DNA of 41,355 bases, from assembly GCA_022425505.1 (NCBI GenBank), contig JAKMFI010000003.1, positions 1 to 41,355 on the forward strand, given 5' to 3'. Both the position numbers and the translations under genes were made by a program. Of the stretch, positions 1,432 through 5,497 are shown piece after piece. The notes under the pieces were generated by a model. That model did no database searches. It was not told where the DNA came from and was given only the letters and a program-made list of their open reading frames with translations. The stretch is from Flavobacteriaceae bacterium (GTDB lineage: Bacteria; Bacteroidota; Bacteroidia; Flavobacteriales; Flavobacteriaceae). How positions within the stretch are numbered: position 1 is the first letter of the stretch; each line of letters opens with the position of its first letter.

Positions 1432-1462
1432 TTTGTTTTTTCGGGGGATGCACTTACATTTG
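1432..1462 (+). promoter_or_regulatory. Bacteroidetes-type promoter upstream of the pheA leader
   Basis: TTTG (1432-1435), 19-nt spacer, TACATTTG (1455-1462), matching TTTG-N17-23-TAnnTTTG. Confidence 0.65.
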
Positions 1463-1470
1463 CATCCGTT

Positions 1471-1536
1471 ATGAATAACACGTTATACTATTACAGCGCC
1501 TTTTATACTTCTCAAACGGAGCAGGGCGATTTGTAA
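1471..1536 (+). CDS. Candidate aromatic attenuation leader peptide MNNTLYYYSAFYTSQTEQGDL
   Basis: 21-codon ORF with 4 Tyr and 1 Phe within 7 codons, directly upstream of an intrinsic terminator and an aromatic operon. Confidence 0.75.
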   Translation: MNNTLYYYSAFYTSQTEQGDL

Positions 1537-1570
1537 TACAATACGATGAAACAAATACTAGAAAGTCCTG
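1522..1570 (+). promoter_or_regulatory. Candidate antiterminator hairpin
   Basis: CAGGGC (1522-1527) can pair with GTCCTG (1565-1570, one G-U); ATTTGT (1529-1534) pairs with ACAAAT (1551-1556). The first pairing is mutually exclusive with the terminator. Confidence 0.55.
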
Positions 1571-1595
1571 ACAACAACATCAGGGCTTTTTTTTT
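1564..1595 (+). terminator. Intrinsic terminator / attenuator before pheA
   Basis: AGTCCTGA / TCAGGGCT stem (8 bp, one G-U), loop CAACAACA, tract of nine T, ending 4 nt before the pheA ATG. Confidence 0.85.
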
Positions 1596-1598
1596 GAT

Positions 1599-2423
1599 AT
1601 GAAGACAACAGTTGCGATACAAGGGATCAAAGGGTCATTTCACGATGAAGTGGCACAGCAATATTTTGTAAATCAGAGAGAGATATTGGCTTGCGATTCA
1701 TTTGATCTGTTGGTGCAGTCGGTTGTAAATGACAAATGCAAGCAAGCAGTCATGGCCATAGAAAACTCGATTGCTGGCTCGATTTTGCCCAATTACGCCT
1801 TGCTTGATCAGTATGATTTATCCATTGTCGGTGAGCATTTCTTAAGCATTACCCATAATCTGATGGCTATGCCAGGGCAAAGCATTTCGGACATTCAAGA
1901 AGTACACTCACATCCGATGGCACTCCTGCAGTGTAAACAATTTTTTCAGGCCTACCCTCACATCAAGCTTGTTGAAAGTTCAGATACAGCAGCTGTCGCT
2001 AAAGATATCAGCGACAATAACCAAACTGGGAAGGGTGCGATTGCCAGTCGGCTTGCGGCTGACCTGTATGGTCTTCAAGTCATTCGCGAGTCGATTCAAA
2101 CGATTAAAGATAACGTCACCCGTTTTGTCATTGTTCAAAAAACAGTAGATCAAGCAATTACAAATATTTCAAAAGCAGCATGGAAATTTGCTCTGGATCA
2201 CAAACGCGGAAGTTTGGCAACAGCTCTCAATGTGATGAGTGACTGCAAATTGAATCTCACCAAAATACAATCCTTGCCGGTGATTGAAACACCCGGCAAG
2301 TATGCCTTTTTTGTCGATGTCACATTTGATGACCCTGCAAACTATCGAAAGGCCAAATCTCTGTTGGAAATTATGGCAACCTCATTTAAAATTTTAGGAG
2401 AATACCAATCTAAAACACCATGA
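1599..2423 (+). CDS. pheA: Prephenate dehydratase
   Basis: IQGIKGSFHDEVAQQYF, AVMAIENSIAGSI, DNVTRFVIV, C-terminal ACT-like region. Confidence 0.92.
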   Translation: MKTTVAIQGIKGSFHDEVAQQYFVNQREILACDSFDLLVQSVVNDKCKQAVMAIENSIAGSILPNYALLDQYDLSIVGEHFLSITHNLMAMPGQSISDIQEVHSHPMALLQCKQFFQAYPHIKLVESSDTAAVAKDISDNNQTGKGAIASRLAADLYGLQVIRESIQTIKDNVTRFVIVQKTVDQAITNISKAAWKFALDHKRGSLATALNVMSDCKLNLTKIQSLPVIETPGKYAFFVDVTFDDPANYRKAKSLLEIMATSFKILGEYQSKTP

Positions 2424-3565
2424 CAGCAAGAAGATTAGATCGTGTTCAGGAGTATTATTTCTCCAAAAAGCTACGGGAAGTACGTGCGATGATTGCGTCG
2501 GGTAAGCCCGTGATTAACATGGGTATTGGCAGTCCTGATCTGCCGCCGCCTCAAGATGTGGTCGATGCCCTTCACAACAGTATGTCGCACCCGACTGCAC
2601 ACAAATACCAAAGCTATCAAGGCATCCCTGCGTTGCGTGAGGCCATTGCAGACTTTTATCAAAAGCAGTATGGAGTAACCCTAAATCCAGAAAATGAAAT
2701 TCTACCCTTGTTGGGATCCAAAGAAGGGATTATGCACATTTCGATGGCATTCCTCAATCCCGGCGACCAAGTATTGGCGCCCAATCCGGGCTACCCAACC
2801 TATACTTCTGTCACGCGATTGGTAGAAGCTGAAGCAGTGTTTTACAATCTCGAGGCACATCACCATTGGCAACCAAACCTTGAGGAGCTTAAACGCATTG
2901 ACTGTACAAAGGTTCGATTGATGTGGATCAATAGTCCACATATGCCAACTGGAACAACAATTGACCCCCAACTTTTGACCGAGCTTGTTGGATGGGCTAA
3001 AGAAAACGACATTTTGTTGGTCAATGACAATCCATACAGTTTTGTACTCACAGACCAGCCACAGAGTATCTTCCAAAATATAGATGATAAATCTCATGTT
3101 ATGGAGTTGAATTCATTGAGCAAGTCGTTTAACATGGCTGGTTGGCGAATGGGAATGTTAAGCGGATCTAAAGAGAACATCAATCATGTACTTAAGGTCA
3201 AAAGCAATATGGATTCGGGCATGTTTTATGGAATCCAACAGGGCGCGATTGCTGCCTTGCAGCAACCACAATCTTGGTTTGATCATATCAATGCCATATA
3301 CAAAGAGCGAAGAGAGCAAGTTTGGAAATTGGCAGAAGTCATGGGTTGTACTTTCAGCAGGGACAACAGTGGGATGTTTGTATGGGCAAAACTTCCCGAT
3401 GGGCACAATGACAGTGAACGTTTTATTGATCAACTCCTGCACGAAAAACATATTTTTTTAGCGCCTGGCACCATTTTCGGAAGCGCGGGTCAAGGATACA
3501 TCCGGTTCTCGCTATGTATTGATAAAGGTCAGATTGTAGAAGCTTTAAATCGATTAGAGAAATGA
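2420..3565 (+). CDS. Pyridoxal-phosphate aminotransferase class I/II, probably aromatic/prephenate-type
   Basis: INMGIGSPDLPPP, NPGYPTY, SLSKSFNMAGWRMG (PLP lysine); 4-bp overlap with pheA. Confidence 0.88.
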   Translation: MTARRLDRVQEYYFSKKLREVRAMIASGKPVINMGIGSPDLPPPQDVVDALHNSMSHPTAHKYQSYQGIPALREAIADFYQKQYGVTLNPENEILPLLGSKEGIMHISMAFLNPGDQVLAPNPGYPTYTSVTRLVEAEAVFYNLEAHHHWQPNLEELKRIDCTKVRLMWINSPHMPTGTTIDPQLLTELVGWAKENDILLVNDNPYSFVLTDQPQSIFQNIDDKSHVMELNSLSKSFNMAGWRMGMLSGSKENINHVLKVKSNMDSGMFYGIQQGAIAALQQPQSWFDHINAIYKERREQVWKLAEVMGCTFSRDNSGMFVWAKLPDGHNDSERFIDQLLHEKHIFLAPGTIFGSAGQGYIRFSLCIDKGQIVEALNRLEK

Positions 3566-4422
3566 AAGTAGGATTGATCGGCGTTGGTTTGATGAATGGA
3601 TCCTTGGCATTAGATCTGAAAAGTGCGCACCCAAGTGTTCTGGTATACGGGGTGAGTCGAACGGAAGCCACGTTATCAAATGCAATGGAATTGGGCTTGA
3701 TCGATCATCGTGCCACAATCGATGAGTTAAAAGACATGGACTTGGTTTCTGTTGCCATTCCAGTTGAGGCCACAGCATTTCTTTTACCAAAGATTCTTGA
3801 TGCAGTAGGTCCAGATACCTTGGTTATCGATATGGGATCGACCAAAACGGCGATCTGTGAGTCGGTTGCCCAACATCCAAAACGCGAACAGTTTTTGGCA
3901 TGTCACCCAATCGCTGGAACAGAGTTCTCAGGTCCCCAAGCTGCCATTCGCAACATGTACAAAGACAAAGTCAATATGCTTTGTGAAACCTATAAAACAA
4001 GACCTGAATTATTGGAGCGTGCACGCTCTATTTTTACCAATTTGGGAATGCAGCTTCGTGAGATAGAACCGATTGCACATGATCGGCATATCGCCTATGT
4101 ATCGCATCTATCGCATATTACCTCATTTATGCTTGGAAAAACTGTCATGGAAAAAGAGGAAAATGAGCAAAACATATTCGACATGGCGGGAAGTGGATTT
4201 TCATCTACTGTTCGTTTGGCAAAAAGCTCACCCGAGATGTGGATGCCGATTTTTAAGCAAAACAAGCAAAACGTCATCGAGACACTTGACGAATACATTT
4301 CCAATATGGAATATTTTAAATCCTTATTGACAAATGATGATTACACCACGCTAGTGGAAGAAATGAAGAAAATTAATACAATCACACATATTTTAAAACC
4401 TGAAATAAAGACAAATGGATAA
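3562..4422 (+). CDS. tyrA: Prephenate dehydrogenase
   Basis: MKVGLIGVGLMNGSLALDLK NAD-binding motif, VIDMGSTKTAI, CHPIAGTEFSGP. Confidence 0.92.
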   Translation: MKVGLIGVGLMNGSLALDLKSAHPSVLVYGVSRTEATLSNAMELGLIDHRATIDELKDMDLVSVAIPVEATAFLLPKILDAVGPDTLVIDMGSTKTAICESVAQHPKREQFLACHPIAGTEFSGPQAAIRNMYKDKVNMLCETYKTRPELLERARSIFTNLGMQLREIEPIAHDRHIAYVSHLSHITSFMLGKTVMEKEENEQNIFDMAGSGFSSTVRLAKSSPEMWMPIFKQNKQNVIETLDEYISNMEYFKSLLTNDDYTTLVEEMKKINTITHILKPEIKTNG

Positions 4423-5497
4423 TAATAAATCAATGGGTAAATGGCTTCATGCCTTTAACCTCTCTCATCCCCTCGTGATTGCGGGTCCTTGTAGCGCAGA
4501 GACCGAAGAGCAAGTGATGGATATTGCACACCAACTCAAGGATACCGATGCCACAATTTATCGAGCAGGGATTTGGAAACCAAGAACCCGGCCTGGAAAT
4601 TTTGAAGGCGTTGGAGCCATTGGATTAAAGTGGTTGCAACGCGTCAAAGAAGAAACGGGAATGATGACCGCCACAGAAGTAGCCAATAAAGATCATGTGA
4701 AGCTTGCTTTAGAAGCGGATATTGACGTGCTTTGGATTGGTGCTCGATCAACGGTCAGCCCGTTTATTGTACAGGAAATTGCAGACGCACTTCAGGGTAC
4801 AAACAAAATTGTACTTGTAAAAAACCCTGTAAACCCTGACTTGGCGCTTTGGCTTGGTGGGATTGAGCGATTATATACGTCTGACATCAAAAATCTGGGT
4901 GTGATTCACCGTGGGTTTTCGAGTTATGCAAAAACAAAATATCGCAACAATCCAGAATGGCAATTGGCGATCGAATTGCAAAATCGATTCCCTGACCTTC
5001 CCTTGATTTGTGATCCATCACATATTTGCGGACGCCGTGACATTTTACAAGACGTATCGCAAACAGCACTGGACCTGAATTTTGACGGTTTGATGATTGA
5101 ATCCCATCGCGACCCGGATAATGCATGGAGCGATGCGGCACAGCAAATTACGCCAGAAACTCTTGTTCAAATAATGAAAGATCTTCGCATTCGAAAAACA
5201 ACAGACAATGCAGAAAGCTATGTCAATAAGCTCGATACCCTTCGTGCTCAAATTGATGTGATTGACCACAGTTTGCTTGAAACATTAGGAAAGCGGATGA
5301 ATATTTCTGTCGATATCGGAACCTTGAAGAAAGAGCACAATGTAGCTGTTTTGCAGTCTAAGCGTTGGAATGAGATTTTGGGAAAGATGATTCTCGAAGG
5401 AGAAAAACATGGATTGAGTGAAGAGTTTGTGTTGCGCATGTTCAAAGCGATTCATCAGGAATCGATCAATCATCAAGAGAAGGTGATCAACACCTAA
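4415..5497 (+). CDS. Bifunctional DAHP synthase / chorismate mutase (C-terminal AroQ-type domain)
   Basis: VIAGPCSAETEEQV, YRAGIWKPRTRPGNFEGVG, LICDPSHICGRRD; C-terminal LDTLRAQIDVIDHSLLETLGKRM. Confidence 0.92.
   Translation: MDNNKSMGKWLHAFNLSHPLVIAGPCSAETEEQVMDIAHQLKDTDATIYRAGIWKPRTRPGNFEGVGAIGLKWLQRVKEETGMMTATEVANKDHVKLALEADIDVLWIGARSTVSPFIVQEIADALQGTNKIVLVKNPVNPDLALWLGGIERLYTSDIKNLGVIHRGFSSYAKTKYRNNPEWQLAIELQNRFPDLPLICDPSHICGRRDILQDVSQTALDLNFDGLMIESHRDPDNAWSDAAQQITPETLVQIMKDLRIRKTTDNAESYVNKLDTLRAQIDVIDHSLLETLGKRMNISVDIGTLKKEHNVAVLQSKRWNEILGKMILEGEKHGLSEEFVLRMFKAIHQESINHQEKVINT

Follow-up and report, generated by a model that had tools for sequence, protein, structure and literature searches.

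Leader-peptide attenuators such as trpL, hisL and the ilv, leu and thr leaders have been described for Proteobacteria and Actinobacteria. In E. coli, the pheL leader has Phe as its only control codon, and pheA is the one gene that it regulates, tyrA-aroF being encoded on the other strand. Leader-peptide attenuation of hisS in Firmicutes was described in 2010 (Naville and Gautheret, PMC2965389); that study does not mention Bacteroidetes, and a his-gene survey of Bacteroidota names attenuation only in passing. A 2021 transcriptome of Flavobacterium psychrophilum, as far as its accessible text goes, reports a structured element in the 5' region of pheA that is kept in other Flavobacteriaceae and has no Rfam hit, together with strong clues for leader-peptide attenuation before amino-acid operons (PMC9723704). 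Here, we analysed the region upstream of pheA in the window, a 41,355-nt stretch of flavobacterial DNA. We propose that it very probably contains a ribosome-mediated leader-peptide transcription attenuator of the pheL/trpL type, predicted from sequence comparison to respond to the supply of charged aromatic tRNAs.

The window belongs to a genome of 1.36 Mb (79% complete) whose closest relatives are marine Flavobacteriaceae MAGs. In the window, a short ORF encoding MNNTLYYYSAFYTSQTEQGDL, with four Tyr codons and one Phe codon, stands 5' of an operon for the biosynthesis of these amino acids (Table 1). The ORF with its sensor codons, the promoter TTTG-N19-TACATTTG, the two copies of CAGGGC, the GTCCTG between them and the ATTTGT/ACAAAT pair had all been described in the original prediction; on a base-by-base check, they were found exactly as it had placed them. 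The domain matches likewise agree with its gene order of pheA, aminotransferase, tyrA and DAHP synthase-chorismate mutase. Divergent from this operon, on the minus strand at 609-1382, lies a gene for a GDSL-like lipase/esterase-like lipoprotein, which scores under the Pfam cut-off.

Table 1 Features of the pheA leader and operon in the window
Feature	Position	Strand	Basis or remark
-33 promoter element TTTG, Bacteroidota type	1432..1435	+	sequence and pattern match; kept by eye in relatives
-7 promoter element TACATTTG, consensus TAnnTTTG	1455..1462	+	pattern match
Leader peptide ORF MNNTLYYYSAFYTSQTEQGDL, 21 codons	1471..1536	+	stop TAA at 1534-1536; base-by-base check
Sensor codons TAC TAT TAC AGC GCC TTT TAT	1486..1506	+	Tyr6-Tyr8, Phe11, Tyr12
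Region 1, 5' arm of the 1:2 hairpin, overlapping the Tyr/Phe codons	1489..1502	+	minimum-energy fold
Region 2, last leader codons and stop	1522..1538	+	pairs with region 1 (1523-1538) or region 3 (core CAGGGC 1522-1527)
ATTTGT, extension of the 2:3 antiterminator, partner of 1551-1556	1529..1534	+	sequence; duplex prediction
ACAAAT, partner of 1529-1534	1551..1556	+	sequence; duplex prediction
Region 3 core GTCCTG, common 3' arm of antiterminator and 5' arm of terminator	1565..1570	+	folds, duplexes, covariation
Region 4 core CAGGGC, terminator 3' arm	1581..1586	+	terminator scan, fold, covariation
U-tract of the intrinsic terminator, nine T	1587..1595	+	sequence; terminator scan
pheA, prephenate dehydratase	1599..2423	+	PF00800, E 2.2e-57
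Class I/II aminotransferase, presumably aromatic	2420..3565	+	PF00155; 4-nt overlap with pheA
tyrA, prephenate dehydrogenase	3562..4422	+	PF02153/PF20463; NCBIfam NF006307 over cut-off
DAHP synthase-chorismate mutase fusion	4415..5497	+	PF00793 and PF01817

The four genes of the operon overlap successively by 4, 4 and 8 nt. In all 68 relatives with full-length loci, they form one block on one strand, with the aminotransferase moved to the end in 11; therefore, one attenuator can control the entire branch. The promoter pattern is not significant in the window alone, where 3 occurrences were found against 2.5 expected. Among the family loci, a TAnnTT(T/A)G box is placed at most 32 nt upstream of the leader ATG (5-24 nt gap) in 177 of 188, compared with 7% of shuffles. 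The gap between the -7 box and the ATG is 8 nt in the window, so that the transcript, going by the -7 box position given in the literature, would probably start only a few nucleotides 5' of the leader ATG. Translation initiation in Bacteroidota proceeds without Shine-Dalgarno pairing.

The leader ORF is separated from pheA by an intrinsic terminator, a 12-bp hairpin at 1560-1591 with nine T up to 1595. Its energy is -14.3 kcal/mol (z -4.6) and none of 200 shuffles was equally good, while the fold of the entire leader gives a z of -3.05. The original prediction was correct about this terminator and one nucleotide off about its distance, as the gap from the U-tract to pheA is 3 nt rather than 4. 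In the minimum-energy fold of the whole leader, we also observed a 1:2 helix that had been missed before, in which region 1 (1489-1502, Tyr7 to Phe11) pairs with 1523-1538, which completes the set of three helices known from textbook attenuators. This protector hairpin over the control codons is clear in the window and weaker across the set of relatives; owing to it, an untranslated leader would also terminate. The 2:3 helix is modest in the window alone (fold of 1505-1575, z -1.4) and becomes compelling only in comparison with relatives. Its energy in the window is about -10.6 kcal/mol versus -14.3 kcal/mol for the 3:4 helix, and the 2:3 helix must therefore form first, during transcription.

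We then compared the upstream regions of pheA at 239 loci. The detector called a mini-ORF in which 12 residues include 5 or more aromatic ones and which has a terminator behind it, and dinucleotide shuffles of the family upstream regions served as the control. An aromatic leader ORF and a terminator precede pheA at 190 of 196 family loci, a count over related and thus not independent sequences, compared with 7 of 588 shuffled family upstream regions (1.2%). Outside the family, the pair was found at 5/6 other loci of the order and 29/37 other Bacteroidia. The sensor block contains 954 TTT/TTC and 40 TTA/TTG codons, and aromatic codons are in excess in the reading frame only, indicating that selection acts on the codons and not on base composition. 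Phe and Tyr codons do arise easily from U-rich sequence, and one might ask whether an AT-rich upstream region has thrown up an aromatic-rich ORF and a strong terminator by chance. With such a gap between real loci and shuffles, with Leu TTA/TTG nearly absent from the sensor block and with covariation far over that of shuffles, this explanation is vanishingly improbable, and we rejected it as refuted by the comparative data.

The arms of the helices were compared as 6-mers and by duplex energies. Region 3 occurs as 32 distinct hexamers (for example GTCCTG, GTCTCG, GTCCCG, TCCCGC, CCCGGA and GACCGC), and in most cases a locus' own regions 2 and 4 match it. Over 108 distinct triples, among which some arms are mis-extracted, the 3:4 helix is paired in 98.6% of cells (shuffled maximum 69.3%) with 190 double-change cells (maximum 64). 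The corresponding values for the 2:3 helix are 89.8% (shuffled maximum 63.9%) and 189 (maximum 71), where the fitting of region 2 to region 3 inflates the paired fraction and leaves the difference from swapped arms unaffected. The mean 2:3 duplex has an energy of -12.9 kcal/mol with its own region 3, versus -8.25 kcal/mol with the region 3 of another species, and synonymous recoding of the leader tail weakens this helix (mean z -1.5, window z -2.3). Compensatory changes thus support a 2:3 antiterminator that uses the 5' arm of the terminator and is mutually exclusive with it. The support for the 1:2 helix across relatives is real but weaker: over 221 leaders, the duplex has -11.6 kcal/mol with its own arms versus -8.1 kcal/mol with swapped arms and a z of -0.8 against synonymous recoding, values to be read with the caveat that Tyr codons are partly complementary to the Leu-stop-codon sequence by default. 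A conserved aromatic mini-ORF in relatives, with compensatory changes in both alternative hairpins, was what the original prediction had expected of an attenuator, and both the 2:3 and the 3:4 helix carry such changes.

These data also bear on whether the ORF encodes a functional small protein on a transcript of its own, which the terminator merely ends while pheA is expressed from another promoter. The ORF is conserved and lies directly behind a promoter, as this would require; it is conserved, however, in aromatic character alone, as Y, F and W interchange freely and the length varies, and its C-terminal codons track the RNA pairing. In addition, the 3 nt between the end of the terminator and the start of pheA in the window have no space for a promoter. 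We consider a small protein highly improbable.

The position of the aromatic codons relative to the RNA arms fits a ribosome that acts as a ruler. In 203 leaders, aromatic codons occupy offsets -15 to -5 relative to region 2. Counted from the first base of region 2, Tyr, Phe and Trp codons together make up 86-98% at -8 to -5; their share drops to roughly one quarter at -4 and does not exceed 3% from -3 to +1. They end about 13-15 nt 5' of region 2. Since a ribosome extends about 12-13 nt beyond its A site, one with the A site at codon -5 would come right up to region 2. The window has Tyr12 at 1504, the first base of region 2 at 1522 and the stop codon at 1534; from this spacing, a ribosome stalled at the control codons would leave region 2 free and a terminating ribosome would cover it.

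In the mechanism that we propose, RNA polymerase would start a few nucleotides before the leader ATG, and a ribosome would translate the 21 codons of the leader. A shortage of Tyr-tRNA (or Phe-tRNA) would stall this ribosome at codons 6-12, where it would cover region 1 and leave region 2 free from 1522 to pair with region 3 (1565-1570), aided by 1529-1534/1551-1556, so that no terminator forms and the operon is transcribed. When the aromatic tRNAs are charged, the ribosome at the stop codon would sit on region 2, the 3:4 helix would form and transcription would terminate at the U-tract. With no ribosome on the leader, the 1:2 helix would form and transcription would also end. This model of stalling, antitermination and termination had been put forward for the window from its letters, and the conserved ORF, the covariation and the codon ruler support it as a prediction. 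T-boxes, riboswitches and protein-bound attenuators likewise use terminator/antiterminator pairs before aromatic genes in other phyla. Such an element in place of a ribosome-sensed one is extremely improbable here, since it would leave the codon-level selection and the ribosome ruler unexplained, the leader is only about 130 nt long, and the Rfam search of the leader returned no match to a T-box or riboswitch family.

As to what the attenuator would sense, Tyr and Phe codons are both present in all 221 retained leaders, and Trp codons also occur in 90 (about 40%). It could be argued that each attenuator senses one amino acid, effectively Tyr in the window and mainly Phe in most relatives, with the other aromatic codons as passengers. 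The four Tyr codons against one Phe codon in the window leader and the clade-dependent Phe/Tyr ratio speak for this. We regard it as unlikely, because none of the 221 leaders lacks Tyr and none lacks Phe, both amino acids occupy the decisive final codons of the sensor (-8 to -5), and both are products of the operon. We therefore favour joint sensing of Tyr and Phe as the probable reading. In the window's own genus, the leaders are rich in Tyr and do not have the FYFYF block seen in other genera; most Phe codons have been lost from the leader within this genus (1471-1536 in the window), and its Tyr bias (YYY...FY) possibly reflects a shift of sensor specificity. A Trp codon (NWFYFFF) is seen in many flavobacterial leaders (loci L093-L103, L114-L172), and judging from these leaders, Trp may be sensed along with Tyr and Phe by the pheA-DAHP synthase operon.

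The leader follows the Bacteroidia type of pheA beyond the class. In other classes of the phylum, it was found at 4 of 20 loci (L255-L258), where PheA is 43-44% identical to that of the window, and no leader was found at the 16 others (L259-L274), with PheA 33-38% identical. The restriction to Bacteroidia-like pheA genes suggests that the operon was transferred between classes together with its attenuator. At three loci of one genus (L213-L215; PheA 48-50% identical), no aromatic leader was detected even though PheA is near the flavobacterial type, possibly through loss or rearrangement. The broadest reading that we draw is that across Bacteroidia a single leader, read from a nearly leaderless, Shine-Dalgarno-free ORF, combines the signals of two charged tRNAs, Tyr and Phe in every case, or of three, with Trp in ~40%, sets the whole aromatic branch including the first step by DAHP synthase, and was passed on together with the operon to other classes in the phylum; we see about an even chance that it holds in full.

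The window's own genome probably contains a further leader of this kind. On contig C95, an ORF encoding MKNINTWWSACNAQS and a terminator precede trpE (locus L251:1344-1440, trpE at L251:1450). The ORF has tandem Trp codons and a TATATTTG box 8 nt before its ATG, the same spacing as in the pheA leader, and its 12-bp terminator lies just before trpE. MKNINTWWSACNAQS is likely a trp leader peptide, and together with the terminator it makes the lineage appear to use leader-peptide control for trp as well. We found no hisG match in the 79%-complete window genome, while the HisG family model matches in 13 of 14 control genomes, which would reflect either an assembly gap or histidine auxotrophy.

Leader-peptide attenuation depends on a ribosome that stays close behind RNA polymerase. 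Bacteroidota use unusual promoters and initiate translation without Shine-Dalgarno pairing, and an attenuator found throughout one of their classes lends itself naturally to testing, with a simple assay, how transcription and translation are coupled in this phylum. It would also offer an explanation of how flavobacteria that are abundant in the sea and in soil may control their main aromatic amino-acid operon. From the motif of aromatic mini-ORF, regions 2-4 and pheA, an Rfam family and a gene annotation could be made.

Compared with known systems, the pheA leader is a classical kind of switch, and the new points are evidence at the level of mechanism, a sensor of mixed aromatic codons and an extent that covers the class. 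To the original prediction, a mixed Tyr/Phe sensor in this phylum had looked under-described; this novelty is weaker than it had hoped, as the structured pheA element and the clues for attenuation were published in 2021 (PMC9723704). That element shares the gene and the family with ours, and the accessible main text describes neither a peptide nor helices or sensed amino acids, and does not follow the element beyond the family. In the literature that we searched, which leaves out subscription papers, notably Lopatovskaya 2010, we found no description of the peptide, the helices, mixed sensing or the class-wide extent. As in leader-peptide attenuators generally, the control codons are those of the operon product and antiterminator and terminator are mutually exclusive; the leader differs from them in its TTTG/TAnnTTTG promoter, its mixed Tyr/Phe(/Trp) control codons and, in the window's genus, a leader ATG only a few nucleotides from the predicted transcription start. 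The Rfam model Phe_leader (RF01859) matches the leader weakly, at 24.8 bits (E 0.029) against a gathering threshold of 55 bits, and in the same register (1470-1595 on model positions 1-125). E. coli pheL shares the short aromatic-rich leader ORF, the three helices 1:2, 2:3 and 3:4 and the position of the terminator directly upstream of pheA, and our detector returned the same ORF-terminator layout for pheL of E. coli K-12. In pheL, however, region 2 appears just after the stop codon, whereas in the window it lies in the last sense codons, and in contrast to the single gene under pheL, the window operon combines the Phe and Tyr pathways with DAHP synthase.
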